Positions 4,328-12,178 of a DNA stretch of 37,620 nt are shown one piece after another. Both the position numbers and the translations under genes were made by a program. The notes below the pieces were generated by a model that made no database searches, was not told where the DNA came from, and worked only from the letters and a program-made list of their open reading frames with translations. How positions within the stretch are numbered: position 1 is the stretch's first letter; each line of letters starts with the position of its first letter. Source of the stretch: Opitutaceae bacterium (GTDB lineage: Bacteria > Verrucomicrobiota > Verrucomicrobiia > Opitutales > Opitutaceae); assembly GCA_003164715.1 (NCBI GenBank), contig PLTZ01000012.1, positions 1 through 37,620 on the forward strand, written 5' to 3'.

Positions 4328-4504
4328 ATGACCGACCCACACCAGTTTGCTGATGGGGACAATTCGCCGTCATCACCGTCCGCGGCGCAGGCGTTTTGCA
4401 AATCGGGACCGCAGAGCCCCGCGTTTTCCAAGGTGAATGTGACGTTTGCTGGCGCGGCGGTTTTCCGGCTTGCACAGGCCGGAGGATGCAGCTCCTCAAT
4501 TTAA
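4328..4504 (+). CDS. Possible leader peptide ORF upstream of the magnesium ATPase gene
   Basis: An ATG at 4328 opens a 58-codon frame ending TAA at 4502-4504, one base before the preferred mgtA ATG at 4506. The peptide is rich in Ser, Pro and Ala, with repeated Ser-Pro pairs in residues 13-35. No family is recognised. In enterobacteria mgtA is controlled by a short proline-containing leader ORF (mgtL); the position here is suggestive, but the peptide is longer and not homologous. It could instead be chance open sequence in a GC-rich region. Confidence 0.25.
   Translation: MTDPHQFADGDNSPSSPSAAQAFCKSGPQSPAFSKVNVTFAGAAVFRLAQAGGCSSSI
4463..4497 (+). promoter_or_regulatory. Two mutually exclusive small hairpins around the mgtA ribosome-binding region
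   Basis: CCGGC (4465-4469) can pair with GCCGG (4478-4482). GGAG (4481-4484), a Shine-Dalgarno-like run, can instead pair with CTCC (4492-4495). The two pairings share bases 4481-4482, so they cannot form together. This could gate translation of the ATPase gene, but the stems are short and I recognise no known riboswitch (no M-box signature). Confidence 0.25.
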
Positions 4505-4505
4505 G

Positions 4506-7127
4506 ATGCCCACGACCCCAAAGAATGGGACCGAACGGCAAGGCTCGGCCGATCCTGCCCTGTACACGGCGGCCGAGGCCGAGCTCCTCGGCAAGCTGGG
4601 GACGTCGGCGGCCGGACTCACCTCCGAGCAGGCCGCGGCGAAACTCAGCGAATTCGGGCCGAACTCCGTGGCGAGCGGTGGTCGCCAGTCCTTCCTGGCC
4701 GACATCCTCCACCGCTGCAAGAACCCGCTCGTCATCCAGCTGCTTATCATCGCGATCGTCTGCTATATCACGGGCGATCCGACCTCGGCCGGCGTGGTGG
4801 GCGGCATGGTCTGCCTGAGCGTCTTCCTCTCGTACTTCCAGGAGACGCGTTCGTCCCGGGCCGTCGAGAAGCTGCAGACCATGGTGAAGACGACCGTCAC
4901 GGTCGTGCGTGACGGGAAGGAGTCGGACATCCAGCTCGAGGAAGTGGTGCCCGGCGACCTCGTGGTCCTCGCCGCCGGGAGCCTGATCCCCGCCGACCTG
5001 CGCGTCCTCACGACGAAGGATTTCTTCGTCAGCCAGTCGGCGCTCACGGGCGAGTCCATGCCGGTCGAGAAGATCGCCGATTCGAACCAGCCCGTGGGCC
5101 GGGTGCCCTTCGAGTTCACGAACGCCTGCTTCATGGGCAGCAACGTGCTGAGCGGCTCCGCGCGCGCGGTCGTCGTGACCACGGGCAGCCGCACCTACTT
5201 CGGATCTCTGGCGGAGAAGATGCTCTCCAAGCGCGCGCCGACAAGCTTCGACGAGGGCGTGCGCGGCTTCACGTGGCTCATGATCCGCTTCATGGTCGTC
5301 ATGGTGCTGATCATGTTCTTCGCCTATGGGTTGAGGGACCACCAGTGGCTCGTGGCCCTGCTGTTCGCCCTCTCGGTCGCCGTCGGCCTCACCCCGGAGA
5401 TGCTGCCGATGATCATGACCGTCTGCCTCTCGAAGGGCGCGCTCATGATGTCCCGGAAGAAGGTCATCGTGAAGCACCTGCACGCGATCCAGAATTTCGG
5501 GGCGATGGACGTCCTGTGCACGGACAAGACCGGAACGCTGACCCAGGACCACGTCGTGCTCGAGCGCTACGTCGACGTGACCAACCGCACGAGTGAGGAC
5601 GTGCTGCGGTATGCGTACATGAATAGCTTCTACCAGACGGGCCTTCGTAACCTGCTCGACCGCGCGATCCTCGCGCACAGCGACCTCGACGTGGAGCGCA
5701 ATTGCAAGAAGGTCGACGAGATCCCCTTCGACTTCAAGCGGCGCAGGATGTCGGTCGTGATCGACTACGAGGACCGGCACGTCCTGATCTGCAAGGGCGC
5801 GGTCGAGGAGGTGATCGGGGCGTGCGTCAACTACCAGGTCGACGACGACGTGAACCCGCTTATCCAGCTGATCCGCGACGACCTTCTCGACGAGTACCGC
5901 ACGCTGAGCGCCCAGGGCTACAGGGTGCTCGCGATCGCGTACCGCGAGTTCGATCGCACCAAGTCGGTGTTCGCAGTGGCCGACGAGTCGGATCTGATAC
6001 TGCTCGGTTACATCGCGTTCTTCGACCCGCCGAAGGACACGTCCGCCCGAGCGATCGAGGCGCTCGGCCGCTCCGGCGTCGCGGTCAAGATTCTCACCGG
6101 TGACAACGAGCTCGTGACGCGCAAGGTCTGCAACGACGTGGGCATTAAGGTCGCCAAGATCGTCACCGGGCCGCAGTTGGCGGCGCTTGACGAGGCGGCC
6201 TTCGGCCGCGAGGTCGCCGAGGGCAATGTGTTCGCCCGTCTGACGCCGGACCAGAAGGAGAAGGTAATCAAGAGTCTCCGGTCCCAGGGCCATGTGGTCG
6301 GGTTCATGGGAGACGGCATCAACGATGTCCTCGCGATGAAGGCCGCCGACGTCGGCATCTCGGTCGACACCGCAGTCGACGTCGCGAAGGAGTCCGCCGA
6401 CATCATTCTGCTCGAGAAGAGCCTCCTCGTCCTCGAGGACGGGATCCTCGAGGGGCGCAAGGTCTTCGGGAACATCATCAAGTACATCAAGATGGGGGCC
6501 AGCTCCAACTTCGGGAATATGTTCAGCATGCTGGGCTCGGTGTTCGTCCTGCCCGTCGACCTCCTGCCGATGCTGCCCCTGCAAATCCTGGTCAACAACC
6601 TGCTCTACGACTTCTCGCAGGTCGGGATCCCGCTAGACCACGTCGACCAGGAGTACCTGGACAAGCCCAGGCGCTGGAACATCAAGAGCATCCAGAACTT
6701 CATGTTCTTCGTGGGCCCGATCAGCTCGATCTTCGACTACGGGACCTGGTTCCTCATGCTGTACCTCTTCGGATGCGCGGCATTCGGGAACGCCGACACG
6801 CCCGACGCGGTGAAGGGGCACCTGGAGAAGCTCTTCCACAGCGCGTGGTTCGTCGAGTCGATCGTGACCCAGACGCTCATCGTTCACATCATCCGCACGC
6901 GGCGCATACCCTTCATCCAAAGCCGCGCCAGCCCGACCATGCTGCTCACCACGATAGGCATCATGGCGATCGGGATCGCCCTGCCCTTCACGGCCGTCGG
7001 CCGCTACCTCGGGTTCGTGGCTCTCCCCGCGTCGTTCTTCCTCTGGCTGCTCCTTTTCGTGGTGACCTACAGCGTCCTCACCCACATCGTGAAGACCTTG
7101 TTCTACCGGCGTTTCGGCACGGACTGA
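4506..7127 (+). CDS. mgtA: Magnesium-translocating P-type ATPase (type IIIB)
   Basis: This 873-residue inner-membrane pump would import Mg2+ using ATP. Diagnostic motifs are the actuator-loop TGES near residue 181, the phosphorylation site DKTGTLTQ with Asp at residue 340, and GDGINDVLAMKAADVGIS in the hinge. The final membrane half contains MGASSNFGNMFSMLGS and ILVNNLLYDFSQVGIPLD, which are typical of MgtA/MgtB rather than Ca2+ or heavy-metal ATPases. The length fits the family (about 890-910). I chose ATG 4506 because the N terminus MPTTPKNG precedes the conserved cytosolic region; an in-frame TTG at 4446 would add 20 residues. The gene is divergent from the SNF2 gene and lies 12 bp upstream of a PTS EIIA-domain gene, so the two are probably co-transcribed. 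Confidence 0.95.
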   Translation: MPTTPKNGTERQGSADPALYTAAEAELLGKLGTSAAGLTSEQAAAKLSEFGPNSVASGGRQSFLADILHRCKNPLVIQLLIIAIVCYITGDPTSAGVVGGMVCLSVFLSYFQETRSSRAVEKLQTMVKTTVTVVRDGKESDIQLEEVVPGDLVVLAAGSLIPADLRVLTTKDFFVSQSALTGESMPVEKIADSNQPVGRVPFEFTNACFMGSNVLSGSARAVVVTTGSRTYFGSLAEKMLSKRAPTSFDEGVRGFTWLMIRFMVVMVLIMFFAYGLRDHQWLVALLFALSVAVGLTPEMLPMIMTVCLSKGALMMSRKKVIVKHLHAIQNFGAMDVLCTDKTGTLTQDHVVLERYVDVTNRTSEDVLRYAYMNSFYQTGLRNLLDRAILAHSDLDVERNCKKVDEIPFDFKRRRMSVVIDYEDRHVLICKGAVEEVIGACVNYQVDDDVNPLIQLIRDDLLDEYRTLSAQGYRVLAIAYREFDRTKSVFAVADESDLILLGYIAFFDPPKDTSARAIEALGRSGVAVKILTGDNELVTRKVCNDVGIKVAKIVTGPQLAALDEAAFGREVAEGNVFARLTPDQKEKVIKSLRSQGHVVGFMGDGINDVLAMKAADVGISVDTAVDVAKESADIILLEKSLLVLEDGILEGRKVFGNIIKYIKMGASSNFGNMFSMLGSVFVLPVDLLPMLPLQILVNNLLYDFSQVGIPLDHVDQEYLDKPRRWNIKSIQNFMFFVGPISSIFDYGTWFLMLYLFGCAAFGNADTPDAVKGHLEKLFHSAWFVESIVTQTLIVHIIRTRRIPFIQSRASPTMLLTTIGIMAIGIALPFTAVGRYLGFVALPASFFLWLLLFVVTYSVLTHIVKTLFYRRFGTD

Positions 7128-7139
7128 ACCGACTAAGCC

Positions 7140-8003
7140 ATGCGCAGCATACTCACCGCACTCCAGGACGGGCGCCTTTTCGAACTTCCGGAGGGCGCGT
7201 CGAAGGAACGCGTCCTCGGATTCCTCGCCCGGATCCTCGACGCGAACCCCAACATCGAGGCCGGCATCGAGGTGATCGAGGAGATCACGCTTCGGGAGAA
7301 GGAGTGCAACACGGGAATCGGGATGGGCGTCGCTGTCCCGCACGTGCGGGCGCACCGCGAGGAGGGCGAGCTCTTCTGCGCGATCGGATGGTCCTCTCAG
7401 GGGATCGCCTACGACGCCCCGGACGGAATCGCGGTCCACCTCGTGGTGATGTACTACATCCCGGGCTCGCAGAAGAACGTCTACCTCAAGGAGGTCTCCA
7501 CCCTGGTCAAGGCGATGCGCAAGAGCGGCGGCATGGAGCCGATCGCCAAGGCCCCCGACCTGAACGCCGTCCGCAATCTCCTGCTCGACTGGGTGAGCTC
7601 CGTGCTCGGGGACGCGGGCCCGGAGTCCGTCGCCCGGATGATCAAGCTCGAGGTGAGGCAGTCCCAGACGGCCGAGCCCGTGCCGGTGCACCCCCAGGTC
7701 GCGGCGCCAGCGGCACCGGGCCCGCTGCCCGCGGCGCTGGCGATCGACGGCCATGTGGCCATCTTCTCGGTCCTCGTGGCTCCGCCAAGCAGCCCCTTCG
7801 TGCTGGCCGCGGATGCCGGGTTGGTCGCAGCGATTGAGAAGGATGCGGGCCTCGCGCAGAGCCTCGCAGTGGCGGCGCCGTTCTCCTACGGCCGCCAGCG
7901 GGTTTTTGTCACGGGTCTTACGGCGTATTCGGGGGGGCGCATCCTCTACCAATGTGTGGCCATTCCGGATAATGCGCCCATTTCGGACTTGTCCAAAACG
8001 TAA
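7140..8003 (+). CDS. PTS EIIA (fructose/nitrogen-type) domain protein with extra C-terminal region
   Basis: Residues 1-155 match the PTS EIIA-2 fold (Fru/Mtl/Ntr type): the segment NTGIGMGVAVPHVRAH carries the phospho-accepting His at residue 68. A linker rich in Ala and Pro (175-195) leads to a C-terminal domain of about 90 residues that I do not recognise. EIIA-Ntr proteins are about 155 residues, so this 287-residue form is a fusion or extension. No EI, HPr, EIIB or EIIC gene is nearby, which favours a regulatory role over sugar uptake. The immediate neighbour is the Mg2+ ATPase; EIIA-Ntr proteins are known to control ion transporters elsewhere (for example TrkA and KdpD), so control of this pump is a reasonable inference. 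Confidence 0.85.
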   Translation: MRSILTALQDGRLFELPEGASKERVLGFLARILDANPNIEAGIEVIEEITLREKECNTGIGMGVAVPHVRAHREEGELFCAIGWSSQGIAYDAPDGIAVHLVVMYYIPGSQKNVYLKEVSTLVKAMRKSGGMEPIAKAPDLNAVRNLLLDWVSSVLGDAGPESVARMIKLEVRQSQTAEPVPVHPQVAAPAAPGPLPAALAIDGHVAIFSVLVAPPSSPFVLAADAGLVAAIEKDAGLAQSLAVAAPFSYGRQRVFVTGLTAYSGGRILYQCVAIPDNAPISDLSKT

Positions 8004-8065
8004 CACGTTCGACACGCAATTGGCACACACCGCGTGCACATTGGAGTGCGTAAACCACGCATTCC

Positions 8066-9232
8066 GTGAAACTCGCGATTGTCACTGAGACATTTCCCCC
8101 CGAAATCAACGGGGTGGCGATGACCTTTGGTGTCATTGCCAACGAGCTCGGCCGGCGCGGACATTCGGTTGCGGTTTACAGGCCTTGGCGGCGCGACCTG
8201 AGGGAGCACGCGGACGGGCAGGCCTTCGTCCAAGTGCCCATGCCCGGCCTTCCGATTCCCGGTTATCCCCTGCTTCGTCTCGGCCTTCCGGCGGGCGGTG
8301 CGCTTAGGCGCGCATGGACGGCCGAAAGGCCTGGCCTCGTTCATGTTGCGACAGAGGGCCCCCTCGGCCTGTCCGCCGTGAGGACCGCCCGCTCCCTCGG
8401 GATCCCGGTGACGTCGAGCTTCCACACAAACTTCCACGCCTACACCCGGCACTACAGGATCTCGCTCCTTAGGGACGCCGCGCTCGCGTGGCTGCGCCAC
8501 GTCCACAACCTGACGAGCCGCACGTTCGCCCCCACGGCGGAACTCTGCAACGAGCTCTCCGGAATGGGGTTCAAGAACCTCGCCGTGCTGTCACGGGGGG
8601 TCGATACGCGCCAGTTCCGGCCGGAACGGCGGTCGAGCGCCCTGCGCGCCGAGTGGAAGGCAGGCCCGATCGATCCCGTCGTGATCCACGTGGGCCGGAT
8701 GGCGGCCGAGAAGAACTATCCCCTGCTCTTCCGCGCGTACGCCGCCATGAAGGAGGCCAATCCCGCCTGCCGCTTCGTGCTCGCAGGCGAGGGCCCGCTC
8801 AAGCGCTCGCTGATCAAGGCCCATCCGGACTGCGTCTTCGCGGGCTTCTTCTCGCGCGACGAGATCGGCCGCTACTACGCGTCCGCCGACATCTACATCC
8901 ACGCGAGCCTCACCGAGACCTTCGGCAACGTGCTCACTGAGGCGATGGCGAGCGGCCTGGCCTCGGCCGGGTTCGACTACGCCGCGGCCCGTGTCTTCAT
9001 CAGGGACGGCGAGAGTGGACTCACGGCTCCGTGCGACGAGCCCGACAGGCTCGTCGCGGCGGCCGTCAGGCTCGCGACCGACCCCGCGTTCAGGAACCGG
9101 CTTCGGATAGCCGGGCGGGCGGCGGTCGAGGCCCAGTCCTGGGAGAAGGTGATCACGCGATTCGAGGCTGAGCTTGAGGCGGCGGCGGGTGTTACGCGCA
9201 CGTCCGCCGGGCAAACGCCGGTTCTCGTCTGA
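8066..9232 (+). CDS. GT4-family glycosyltransferase, probably lipid-directed
   Basis: This 388-residue GT-B enzyme opens MKLAIVTETFPPEINGVA, the usual glycine-containing acceptor loop of GT4 transferases. It also has HTNFHAYTRHY near residue 117, SRGVDTRQF, HVGRMAAEKNYPLLFRA as the start of the nucleotide-sugar domain, and the EX7E-type motif TETFGNVLTEAMASG near 285. The pattern resembles diacylglycerol or phosphatidylinositol glycosyltransferases such as Agt, SqdX and mannosyltransferases. The GTG at 8066 is the start. It begins an operon: the next gene starts 2 bp after its stop. With the neighbouring GT28, lipid kinase and PlcP-like phosphatase, the likely acceptor is diacylglycerol or a monoglycosyl diacylglycerol. 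Donor sugar cannot be read from sequence. No Pho box was recognised in the 62 bp upstream. Confidence 0.85.
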   Translation: MKLAIVTETFPPEINGVAMTFGVIANELGRRGHSVAVYRPWRRDLREHADGQAFVQVPMPGLPIPGYPLLRLGLPAGGALRRAWTAERPGLVHVATEGPLGLSAVRTARSLGIPVTSSFHTNFHAYTRHYRISLLRDAALAWLRHVHNLTSRTFAPTAELCNELSGMGFKNLAVLSRGVDTRQFRPERRSSALRAEWKAGPIDPVVIHVGRMAAEKNYPLLFRAYAAMKEANPACRFVLAGEGPLKRSLIKAHPDCVFAGFFSRDEIGRYYASADIYIHASLTETFGNVLTEAMASGLASAGFDYAAARVFIRDGESGLTAPCDEPDRLVAAAVRLATDPAFRNRLRIAGRAAVEAQSWEKVITRFEAELEAAAGVTRTSAGQTPVLV

Positions 9233-9234
9233 AC

Positions 9235-10386
9235 ATGCGGCCGCGAATCCTGATAATGACCGCGGCGTACGGCGAGGGCCACAACGCCGCGGCCAACGCC
9301 CTTGCAACCGCGTTCAACGACGACGTCCCGGGGACCGCGCTGGTGGTCGACGTCTTCGCGCTGTCGTGCCCGCGCCTCAACGCCCTCATCCGCAGGGCGT
9401 ACCTGGCCACGATCAACGGTACGCCGCGCCTCTGGAGGCACGCCTACGCCTGGATGGACCGCCCGGGCTTCATGACGAGCGGCGTCAGGATGCTCGGGCC
9501 GCAGATGAGGATGCTTGAGGCGATCATCGCGCGCGAGCGCCCGGCCGCGATCTGCAGCACGTTCCCCGCGTACGCGGCGCTCTTCAAGAAGCTCGCCCGC
9601 GAGGGGCGCTTCGCCATCCCGCATTTCAACATTGTGACCGACTCGATCAGCATCAACTCGGTGTGGTGGCGCCCGGGCTGCGACGGCTGGTTCGTGCCGA
9701 ACGAGGATTCGGCCGAGGTGATGAGGGCCGCGGGCGTCGACCCCTCGCGTCTCCACGTGACCGGGTTCCCCGTCACGCCGTACTTCAGGAAGAACGAGGG
9801 CATCGTGACACGGCCCGAGCTCTCCACGGGGACCGCCCCGCGGGTGCTCTACATCGTCAATTCGGGGACGCGCAACGCCGAGGCGACGGCGCGGCTCCTC
9901 CTGGCTGAGGGGGACTGGGAAATCACGTGCACCGTGGGCCGCGACGAGTCCCTGCGCGCGAAGCTCCTCGGCCTCGCGGCCCAGAGGAGCCGCAGGGCCG
10001 AGATCCTCGGCTGGACCGACCAGATCCCGAGGCTCCTCATGACGCACCACGTTGTCGTCAGCAAGGCGGGCGGCGCGACGACCCAGGAGGCCATCGCCGC
10101 GCGCTGCCCGATGGTGGTCAACCAGGTCGTGCCGGGCCAGGAGGAGGGAAACTGCGAGCTTTTGCTGCGCCACGGCGCGGGGGCCCTCGCCACCACGCCC
10201 GAGGCCGTCCTCGCCGCGCTTCGCGCGGCGTTTGGCGACGGAGGGCGGGGCTGGAGCGCCTACCGCTCTGCGCTCGAGCCCATGGCCCGGCCCGACGCCG
10301 CGCGCACCATCGCGGCGCAAGTCCTTTCACTTGTGAACGGGGGGGCCGGGCAGTCCCGCGCGGGCCTCTCCGCGGCACTGCGATGA
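9235..10386 (+). CDS. MGDG-synthase-type (GT28) glycosyltransferase
   Basis: The N terminus RILIMTAAYGEGHNAAANAL matches the MGDG-synthase N-terminal domain, where a G-x-GH-x2-AA loop binds the lipid acceptor. The C-terminal half carries ILGWTDQIPRLLMTHHVVVS, followed by KAGGATTQEAIAARCPMVVN, the UDP-sugar binding signature shared with MurG and UgtP. At 383 residues it has the normal size. Such enzymes transfer galactose, glucose or glucuronate from UDP-sugar to diacylglycerol at the membrane face. It sits between the GT4 gene and the lipid kinase gene, whose ATG overlaps this stop as ATGA. Which sugar is used is not decidable here. Confidence 0.88.
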   Translation: MRPRILIMTAAYGEGHNAAANALATAFNDDVPGTALVVDVFALSCPRLNALIRRAYLATINGTPRLWRHAYAWMDRPGFMTSGVRMLGPQMRMLEAIIARERPAAICSTFPAYAALFKKLAREGRFAIPHFNIVTDSISINSVWWRPGCDGWFVPNEDSAEVMRAAGVDPSRLHVTGFPVTPYFRKNEGIVTRPELSTGTAPRVLYIVNSGTRNAEATARLLLAEGDWEITCTVGRDESLRAKLLGLAAQRSRRAEILGWTDQIPRLLMTHHVVVSKAGGATTQEAIAARCPMVVNQVVPGQEEGNCELLLRHGAGALATTPEAVLAALRAAFGDGGRGWSAYRSALEPMARPDAARTIAAQVLSLVNGGAGQSRAGLSAALR

Positions 10387-11327
10387 ATCTCAGGTTCGTC
10401 TTCAACCCGCGCTCCGGCAGGCCCCGCCGAAACGCCCCCATCCTGCCCATGCTGCGGGACTTCATCGCGGCGCGCGCGCTCGACGCCGACCTCGTTTGCA
10501 CGGAGGGCCCGGGACACGCCACGGAGATCGCGCGGGACGCGGTGACCGCAGGCTGCCTGCGGGTCGTCGCCGTCGGCGGCGACGGGACCGTCAACGAGGT
10601 CGCGCAGGCGTTGATCCACACGCCTGCGGCCATGGGCCTCGTCCCCTGCGGGTCGGGCAACGGACTCGCCCTGCACCTCGGGCTGCCGAAGGCCTTCGCC
10701 GAGGCCCTCGAGCTTGCGACCGGGACCTCGGGGCGGATGGCCGAGCTCGACACGGGCAGCGCCAACGGCCTGCCGTTCGTGAATGCGATGGGCCTCGGCC
10801 TCGACGCCGACGTCGCCCGGCGCTTCAACCGCCTCATGCGCCGCGGCCTGTCGGCCTACACGCGCACCGCGCTGGCCGCCTTCTTCAGCCGCTCAACCGA
10901 GCGCTGCCACGTCAGCGTCGGGGGGCACCGTGAGACGATCGACGCCCTGCTGATCGCGGTCGCCAACTCCGACCAGTACGGCAACAACGCCAGGATCGCG
11001 CCGCGCGCCCGCGTGGACGACGGGGTTCTCGACCTGGTGGCGGTGCGCCCGGTGGGCCTCTTCTCGGCGTGCGTCCTCGGGGCGCAGCTCTTCCTCGGCG
11101 GGATCGACCGCAACCCCCGCGCCCGCCGCCTCAGGGGAGCGCGGTTCCTGATCGAGAGGCCGGCCGCGGGCATCATCCACACCGACGGCGAGACCCACAT
11201 GGCGGCGGCCACGCTCGAGGTCCTCGTGCGGCCCCGCAGCCTGAGGCTCGTCGTGCCCGCGGACTGCACCGCGGCGGCGCGCATCGAGGACCGGCCGGCG
11301 ACCGCCTTCGCCCTGCAGCTGCCGTGA
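10383..11327 (+). CDS. Diacylglycerol/lipid kinase family protein (DagK/YegS type)
   Basis: This 314-residue protein starts MNLRFVFNPRSG and has the nucleotide-binding signature VVAVGGDGTVNEVAQAL (GGDGT at 65-69), then LVPCGSGNGLALHLGLP and NAMGLGLDADVARRFN. These are hallmarks of the DAGKc catalytic domain with the YegS/DgkB two-domain layout. It probably phosphorylates diacylglycerol to phosphatidic acid, or a related lipid. The ATG overlaps the preceding stop (ATGA), and its own stop overlaps the next GTG (GTGA), so translation is coupled. In this operon it could return diacylglycerol released by the PlcP-like enzyme to phospholipid synthesis. Confidence 0.88.
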   Translation: MNLRFVFNPRSGRPRRNAPILPMLRDFIAARALDADLVCTEGPGHATEIARDAVTAGCLRVVAVGGDGTVNEVAQALIHTPAAMGLVPCGSGNGLALHLGLPKAFAEALELATGTSGRMAELDTGSANGLPFVNAMGLGLDADVARRFNRLMRRGLSAYTRTALAAFFSRSTERCHVSVGGHRETIDALLIAVANSDQYGNNARIAPRARVDDGVLDLVAVRPVGLFSACVLGAQLFLGGIDRNPRARRLRGARFLIERPAAGIIHTDGETHMAAATLEVLVRPRSLRLVVPADCTAAARIEDRPATAFALQLP

Positions 11328-12178
11328 AAAGACTCCGCGTACGCACCGTCATCCTCTCCGACGTCCACCTGGGCACCGTCGACTCCAAGGTCGCGGAGGT
11401 GAACCACTTCCTGCGCCATGTGCGCTGCGAGAGGCTCATCCTGAACGGGGACATCATCGACGGCTGGCAGCTCAAGCGTGGCGGCCAGTGGACCAAGGCG
11501 CACACGCACTTCATCCGAATCGTGCTCAAGATGCTGGAGAAGCGCGACACCCAGATCGTCTACCTGCGGGGCAACCACGACGACATCCTCGCGAAGTTCC
11601 TCCCGCTCGAATTCGAGAACCTCCTGGTGGTCGATGAGTACCTCCACGAGGGGATAAAGGGCAGGTACCTCGTCCTCCACGGCGACGTCTTCGACACGGT
11701 GACGAAGAATTTCGTGTTCCTCGCCCACCTCGGCGACTGGGGCTACCACATGCTGCTCATGATCAACCGGGCCTACAACGTGTGGCGCTCGTGGCGCGGC
11801 CTCGAGTACTGGTCCCTGAGCCGGGCGATCAAGGCCCGGGTGAAGTCCGCGGTGAGCCACGTCTCGAAGTTCGAGGAGCACATCGCCGAGCTCGCGCGCA
11901 CCCGGGGATGCTGCGGCGTGATGTGCGGCCACATCCACACGCCCGCCGACAAGATGCTCGGCGACATCCACTACCTGAACTCCGGGGACTGGATCGAGTC
12001 GCTCACCGCGATCGTCGAGCATTGGGACGGCACCTACCAGTTGATCGAGTATTCGGACTTCGTGAAGCAGTTCCCGTTCCCGGACGAGGACGCCGCACCC
12101 GAGGAGCAGGCGCCGGGCGCAGTCCCGGAGGCCGCGCCGAGGTTCCAGGACGAGCATAGCGAGAGCCCCGTGATCTGA
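11324..12178 (+). CDS. Calcineurin-like metallophosphatase, PlcP-like (LpxH superfamily)
   Basis: All metal-binding motifs are present: SDVHLG (Asp13, His15), NGDIIDGW (Asp43), RGNHDD (Asn84, His85), LHGDVFD (His119) and CGHIHTP (His203, His205). The segment LGDWGYHMLLMINRAYN, followed by GLEYWSLS and VSKFEEH, closely recalls phosphate-starvation phospholipase C PlcP of alphaproteobacteria, which is usually auto-annotated as UDP-2,3-diacylglucosamine diphosphatase. The Pro/Glu/Ala-rich C-terminal 40 residues are unconserved. PlcP strips head groups from phospholipids to give diacylglycerol, which suits an operon with two lipid glycosyltransferases. LpxH activity in lipid A synthesis is the alternative; no other lpx gene is here. 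The 284-residue start at GTG 11324 overlaps the kinase stop. Confidence 0.82.
   Translation: MKRLRVRTVILSDVHLGTVDSKVAEVNHFLRHVRCERLILNGDIIDGWQLKRGGQWTKAHTHFIRIVLKMLEKRDTQIVYLRGNHDDILAKFLPLEFENLLVVDEYLHEGIKGRYLVLHGDVFDTVTKNFVFLAHLGDWGYHMLLMINRAYNVWRSWRGLEYWSLSRAIKARVKSAVSHVSKFEEHIAELARTRGCCGVMCGHIHTPADKMLGDIHYLNSGDWIESLTAIVEHWDGTYQLIEYSDFVKQFPFPDEDAAPEEQAPGAVPEAAPRFQDEHSESPVI

Follow-up and report, generated by a model that had tools for sequence, protein, structure and literature searches.

The window analysed here, a stretch of 37,620 nucleotides (contig PLTZ01000012.1; C89 in our numbering) from an Opitutaceae bacterium whose genome comprises 92 contigs and 3.79 Mb and is 98.8% complete, contains four genes on the same strand between positions 8066 and 12178 that encode a family 4 glycosyltransferase (GT4), a family 28 glycosyltransferase (GT28), a lipid kinase of the diacylglycerol kinase (DAGK) family, and a metallophosphatase (Table 1). 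This layout had been proposed in an earlier note and was borne out by open reading frame (ORF) reading and Pfam matches. The proposed joints were likewise found in the sequence: a 2-bp gap (9232/9235) between GT4 and GT28, and two 4-bp overlaps, ATGA (10383-10386) between GT28 and the kinase and GTGA (11324-11327) between the kinase and the phosphatase. An array of direct repeats resembling a Pho box and a hairpin precede the first gene. Judging from sequence comparisons, we consider it highly probable that the locus is a PhoB-controlled membrane-remodelling operon, in which the phosphatase would be an intracellular phospholipase C (PlcP) and the transferases would convert the released diacylglycerol into glycolipids.

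Table 1. Genes and upstream elements of the putative membrane-remodelling operon (coordinates refer to the window).
Feature	Coordinates	Strand	Remarks
GT4 glycosyltransferase, Agt-like (putative diacylglycerol glycosyltransferase)	8066..9232	+	GTG start; PF13439/PF00534
GT28, MGDG-synthase/UgtP type (putative beta-glycosyl-diacylglycerol synthase, possibly processive)	9235..10386	+	ATG start; PF06925
DAGK_cat/YegS-type lipid kinase (putative diacylglycerol kinase)	10383..11327	+	ATG start; PF00781 + PF19279 YegS_C
PlcP-type metallophosphodiesterase (putative intracellular phospholipase C, releasing diacylglycerol)	11324..12178	+	GTG start; PF00149 Metallophos
Pho-box-like array, three direct repeats, period 11 bp	8000..8026	+	GTAAC-N6-GACAC-N6-GGCAC
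Hairpin, 9-bp stem, 5-nt loop, abutting the GT4 GTG start	8043..8065	+	fold and conservation within the genus

The phosphatase admits two readings, PlcP or an LpxH-like UDP-2,3-diacylglucosamine hydrolase, the latter giving the operon a part in the synthesis of lipid A or envelope polysaccharide. In a tree of 61 rows, the six LpxH rows split off at a 100/99 branch, and the window phosphatase lies on the opposite side with the Sinorhizobium meliloti and Pseudomonas aeruginosa references, so that the phylogeny suggested in the earlier note places it with PlcP and apart from LpxH; the tree contains long branches (Pannonibacter, Piscirickettsia, and others), and the reference identities were inferred from gene neighbourhoods. 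In the S. meliloti record the plcP homologue adjoins luxR-type and acyl-homoserine lactone-synthase genes, from which we take it to be SMc00171, reportedly the PlcP described by Zavaleta-Pastor in 2010; in the P. aeruginosa record the homologue adjoins a GT4 gene, and this pair is presumably PA3219-PA3218. The window phosphatase is 39-49% identical to the S. meliloti, P. aeruginosa, Sphingomonas, Mitsuaria, and Parabacteroides homologues (43% to the probable PA3219), compared with 22% to Escherichia coli LpxH. With the S. meliloti PlcP it shares 40% identity as a homologous phosphodiesterase, but that gene has no adjoining annotated glycosyltransferase in a record whose gene table is incomplete, whereas GT4 is present in the window. 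Among the matches listed, the closest named PlcP (92% identical) is from Opitutaceae bacterium isolate palsa_1446 (PLXR01000158.1), and outside the phylum the closest homologues are from Bacteroidota rather than alphaproteobacteria.

Active-site residues and profile searches point the same way. The window phosphatase carries the GNHD motif found in 148 of 148 PlcP rows, and the metal-ligand positions D13, H15, D43, N84, H119, H203, and H205 are invariant across 20 PlcP rows. Four gammaproteobacterial LpxH rows carry GNRD instead, the Arg being described in PMC5016852 as unique to LpxH; a simple Arg rule fails for two LpxH-annotated Bacteroidota rows, which carry the His of GNHD. The LpxH-like reading draws on weak model matches, 19.1 bits with TIGR01854 (cut-off 190.35; E. 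coli LpxH control, 388.9) and 39.1 bits with a second LpxH model (cut-off 134), and on public annotation: among the 31 plasmid records listed, homologues bear the name 'UDP-2,3-diacylglucosamine diphosphatase' in every case where an annotated feature underlies the match, the mis-annotation that the earlier note had anticipated. LpxH and the window phosphatase thus have a metallophosphoesterase family and an annotation name in common, but LpxH forms a separate clade and its gammaproteobacterial diagnostic residue differs. None of 57 genomes had an LpxH-model match above cut-off; weak matches occurred in 13 of them, 12 being the PlcP gene itself, and none in the host. LpxI was found in 53 of the 57, including the host (G000:C45:1117-1467) and 13 of the 14 among the 57 that lack PlcP. 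With an LpxI of its own and nothing matching LpxH, the host need not rely on the operon phosphatase for lipid A synthesis. We therefore rejected a lipid A role for the operon on the phosphatase tree and the LpxH/LpxI searches, and regard the LpxH-like reading, which the Pho-box-like array also opposes, as extremely unlikely. By ancestry, the window phosphatase is PlcP-type rather than LpxH, and hence a putative phospholipase C. A sequence search of the Protein Data Bank (PDB) with PlcP gave no match at E 0.01, and a single-sequence AlphaFold model was uninformative (mean predicted local distance difference test score, pLDDT, 40.8).

The earlier note had set the GT4 protein beside the alphaproteobacterial enzyme Agt, and its matches to the probable Agt1 and Agt2 of P. 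aeruginosa support an Agt-like assignment, which rests on pairwise identity and search ranking. Its best match in the plasmid collection is a P. aeruginosa protein with 41% identity over 377 aligned positions (96% of the query), encoded beside plcR, a phosphocholine-specific phospholipase C gene, and cerN; we recognise this neighbourhood as that of PA0842, so the best match is presumably Agt2, and the nearest GT4 of characterised function to emerge here comes from a gammaproteobacterium. Identity to the probable Agt1 is 31%, and when the latter was searched against the host genome the window GT4 ranked first (3.0e-29; next match, 1.9e-8). Agt1 and Agt2 are proven diacylglycerol glycosyltransferases, and Agt2 (PA0842) makes glucuronic acid-diacylglycerol, according to PMC8528852. 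A different substrate is suggested by the top NCBIfam model, N-acetylglucosaminyl-phosphatidylglycerol synthase, which would have GT4 glycosylate phosphatidylglycerol in the manner of a glucosaminyl-phosphatidylglycerol synthase; the score is 125.7 bits, far below the cut-off of 480. This model does not discriminate, because the probable Agt1 and Agt2 also rank it top (59.9 and 135.2 bits), and given the 41% identity to the probable Agt2 we find a phosphatidylglycerol substrate very unlikely. GT4 is most likely a diacylglycerol glycosyltransferase, as far as homology can indicate, with glucuronate or glucose as its predicted sugar.

GT28 matches PF06925 (MGDG_synth) with 72.6 bits (cut-off 25; E 5.5e-20) and PRK13609 with 161 bits, below the cut-off of 500. 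Its PDB matches are 9wde, a processive diacylglycerol beta-glucosyltransferase (2.1e-24), and 4wyi, MGD1 (1.4e-19), and it thus shares the MGDG_synth domain with chloroplast MGD1 and Firmicute UgtP. To our knowledge, MGD1 and UgtP are not encoded with a PlcP.

The Pho-box-like array ends 39 bp ahead of the GT4 start, and its repeats have the same 11-bp spacing as the Pho box CTGTCATNNNNCTGTCAT quoted in PMC8528852. The pattern GTMACN6GNCACN6GNCAC has one exact match in the 3.79-Mb host genome, at 8000-8026, against none for the reversed control. In 13 genomes of the genus there were 11 exact matches versus two for the control, 10 of the 11 lying approximately 25-40 bp ahead of a GT4 start; the remaining one (G004:C163:12175, in L255) could not be traced to a pho gene. 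In nine genus members the repeat units are conserved and the spacers divergent. Upstream regions of GT4 (47 loci with a GT4 match from residue 1 and at least 100 bp before it) contained arrays at p<0.01 on the sense strand in 29 cases versus five on the other strand, with score weights chosen after the upstream sequences had been viewed and with mononucleotide shuffles. The less circular parts of this test are the opposite-strand control and the pst loci. In the host, pstS, pstC, pstA, pstB, and phoU all score above NCBIfam cut-offs, and a one-mismatch array, comprising two overlapping matches to the looser pattern, lies before pstS. Nine pst regions including that of the host were fetched and eight scanned (L258 was cut short); six of the eight had one array each above threshold, all on the strand of the operon; in four of them it lies 88-92 bp ahead of the start of pstS, and in L261 approximately 250 bp ahead of the aligned start.

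Several observations weigh against control by PhoB at this array. Because the pattern was drawn from these upstream regions, finding it in close relatives is to some extent circular, and no exact match occurs in three of the 13 genus genomes (G001, G009, G012). With one mismatch allowed, the host has 21 matches versus 15 for the control, hardly above background. The sixth pst array (L263) lies 1.6 kb before pstS, ahead of another gene, and the L259 and L264 pst loci have no array above threshold (PstS itself was not found in L264). The response regulator encoded after the host phoU has PhoB as its best model but with 250.5 bits against a cut-off of 296.2, and the adjoining histidine kinase scores best with PnpS (356 against 400), PhoR ranking third (279 against 334). 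The circular derivation of the pattern and the near-background count of its looser form would also suit a housekeeping glycolipid operon without phosphate regulation, the 11-bp repeats being coincidental or serving another regulator. We find this reading very unlikely, given that the single exact match in the genome stands ahead of the operon, that the same repeat type precedes pst operons not used to build the pattern, and that repeat units are kept where spacers diverge. An array common in kind to the operon and to pst ties the operon to phosphate, and we regard it as a putative PhoB site. A repeat finder run on 7950-8150 gave no report of the 11-bp array. In G001 (L046), G009 (L044), and G012 (L053), PlcP and PhoU are encoded on one contig within 20 kb of each other.

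Between the array and the first gene, the hairpin GGAGTGCGT-AAACC-ACGCATTCC abuts the GT4 GTG start in nine genus members. The fold of 8042-8095 has a z-score of -3.17, and 95.3% of cells were paired across the nine members. Changes on both sides were seen at three of eight counted pairs (eight distinct genus sequences), and further pair types were no commoner than in shuffles. The hairpin might act in the control of translation or serve as a DNA operator.

PlcP was found in 66 of the 95 genomes searched, host included. The survey of gene order covered 68 loci in 66 genomes, namely the window and 67 fetched loci, some of them cut by contig ends; two short PlcP fragments in G008 and G041 were left out. 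The exact GT4-GT28-DAGK-PlcP order occurs at 22 of the 68 loci, and the survey of relatives proposed in the earlier note found it in 12 of 13 genomes of the genus; because the order recurs in this way, the arrangement is not due to chance. Within the 22 full-order loci, the 4-bp overlap between GT28 and DAGK is present in 18 and that between DAGK and PlcP in 17. GT4-PlcP alone accounts for 12 loci, PlcP without any of the three partners adjoining for 15, and other combinations for 19 (GT4-DAGK-PlcP, 5; GT4-GT28-PlcP, 4; GT4-PlcP-GT28, 4; DAGK-PlcP, 2; PlcP-GT28, 2; GT28-DAGK-PlcP, 1; GT28-PlcP, 1). Among the best 80 named loci, to which gene contexts beyond the order refer, GT4-PlcP pairs are also found in Verrucomicrobiaceae, Akkermansiaceae, and Rubritalea records, and the cultured Geminisphaera colitermitum TAV2 (L148) has the GT4-GT28-PlcP arrangement. 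This distribution suggests a GT4-PlcP core to which GT28 and the kinase were added as modules. At L068, L070, L077, and L078, GT28 follows plcP rather than standing between GT4 and plcP, as if a module had moved.

The kinase has DAGK_cat and YegS_C domains and a GGDGT motif in common with DgkB, YegS, and BmrU, but differs in its GSGNG loop, the counterpart of which is GTAN in YegS of E. coli and in a lipid kinase of Mesorhizobium, and in being operon-borne with PlcP. GSGN is present in 40 of 40 kinase rows (three from Bacteroidota; some genomes counted twice), and this departure from GTAN would fit a kinase acting on a sphingoid base, ceramide, or monoacyl lipid, in which case the operon would remodel membranes without a diacylglycerol cycle. 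The nearest plasmid-borne relatives are from Bacteroidota (best, 38-39% identity), and because the closest of them (Bacteroides finegoldii) adjoins a true serine palmitoyltransferase gene, the substrate may not be diacylglycerol. PMC9045371 describes the phosphorylation of dihydrosphingosine by a Porphyromonas gingivalis protein for which human SphK1 served as the model. Against such a substrate, neither of the two serine palmitoyltransferase matches in the host is above cut-off, one being Kbl and the other reaching 383 bits against 640. Moreover, a kinase gene follows PlcP and a transferase gene in two Bacteroidota (L168, 2464-5392, where the transferase is Glyco_trans_1_3 by profile, and L183, 6986-9798), a parallel linkage of kinase and PlcP. 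The window kinase is also the only candidate diacylglycerol kinase found in the host: its own query matched nothing else in the host genome at E 0.001, and a search there for the DgkA family gave no match. A phosphate-responsive DagK is listed beside PlcP in the P. putida proteome of PMC5082522. We consider another lipid substrate unlikely, and diacylglycerol is favoured on the basis of gene context. The host gene at L241 1492-2688 (contig C52) belongs to the BioF/Kbl/serine palmitoyltransferase family and scores best with serine palmitoyltransferase models, far below their cut-offs.

These assignments suggest how the operon may work. At low phosphate, PhoBR would activate transcription from the array ahead of GT4, presumably through binding of PhoB. 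PlcP would remove the phospholipid head group to release diacylglycerol, which the Agt-like GT4 and GT28 could each glycosylate, and probably two glycolipids, one possibly acidic and the other neutral or di-glycosyl, would replace phospholipids. The kinase may convert surplus diacylglycerol to phosphatidic acid, a step that would limit free diacylglycerol and return the backbone to phospholipid synthesis. The phosphate-starvation remodelling put forward in the earlier note is thus upheld in part, by the PlcP clade, the host LpxI, the Agt-like GT4, and the Pho-box-like array; the complete cassette and the self-contained cycle that it envisaged are conjectural, as is diacylglycerol as the kinase substrate. 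We offer as a tentative extension, possible rather than probable, that the four enzymes form a Pho-controlled, translationally coupled unit with a closed diacylglycerol cycle, in which two transferases from different families divide the diacylglycerol made by PlcP between an acidic glucuronosyl lipid that replaces phosphatidylglycerol and a neutral hexosyl or di-hexosyl lipid that replaces phosphatidylethanolamine. Any surplus would go back to phosphatidic acid through the kinase, with membrane charge and diacylglycerol level balanced from one promoter. If this were true, the unit would be a general membrane-remodelling device of many Opitutaceae.

Beyond the regulatory points given above, some features of the data fit the remodelling interpretation poorly. 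When phosphate is short, the synthesis of phosphatidic acid goes contrary to the pathway's direction, and the serine palmitoyltransferase gene beside the closest plasmid-record homologue of the kinase may point to a different lipid. At 21 of the 68 loci, PlcP has no GT4 adjoining. For each of the four proteins, the listed NCBIfam matches all fall below their curated cut-offs, and consequently none of the four receives an NCBIfam equivalog name.

PlcP-Agt remodelling under Pho control is itself established (PMC8528852, PMC4796936), and accounts of PlcP in Verrucomicrobiota include its mention in a single-cell genome (PMC4796936; repeated in PMC13086504) and a passage of PMC9239053 that gives verrucomicrobial methanotrophs as without it. 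The P. aeruginosa PlcP-Agt1/Agt2 system (PA3219, PA3218, PA0842), as described in PMC8528852, likewise combines PlcP, GT4 enzymes, and Pho boxes. There, Agt2 is encoded apart from plcP, whereas in the window the Agt2-like gene is first, GT28 and the kinase gene lie inside, and plcP is last. The plcP context types 1-6 of marine heterotrophs in PMC4796936 place plcP with glycosyltransferase genes, as in the window, with a transferase for di- and tri-glycosyl lipids in types 3 and 5; the passages of that paper on these contexts, however, describe neither a kinase, a word absent from its main text, nor the GT4-GT28-kinase-plcP order, both of which are present in the window. Searches of a collection of open-licence papers gave no title or displayed abstract describing such an operon, and a Pho-controlled operon of four genes, with a kinase and a further transferase, appears to be new.

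Verrucomicrobiota commonly inhabit soils, peat, and waters, which are often phosphate-poor, and the operon represents a concrete route by which they could lower their phosphorus demand. The PlcP assignment also corrects an annotation that points to lipid A. For all PlcP systems, the operon raises the question of how diacylglycerol is controlled while phospholipids are dismantled.

With respect to surroundings, the window genes flanking the operon encode a cation ATPase, a phosphotransferase system (PTS) EIIA protein, MnmA, and a LysE-type protein. The earlier note had asked whether the operon belongs to lipid A or polysaccharide loci; the window neighbours are of neither kind, an answer that holds for the window's own flanks, and for relatives the flanking genes were listed as ORFs at 19 loci. 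A scan for sigma-70 promoters and terminators returned a single promoter-like match, located at the GT4-GT28 joint (9230-9257), and a single terminator-like match, located within GT4; matches were rarer than in shuffles. Upstream (4446-8003) lie a gene for an MgtA-like P-type cation ATPase and then the EIIA-type gene (7140-8003), whose stop codon falls within the Pho-box-like array. In Parabacteroides distasonis (L227, 2989-4679), a gene annotated 'lipid A diphosphatase' stands convergent beside a pstS-family gene.

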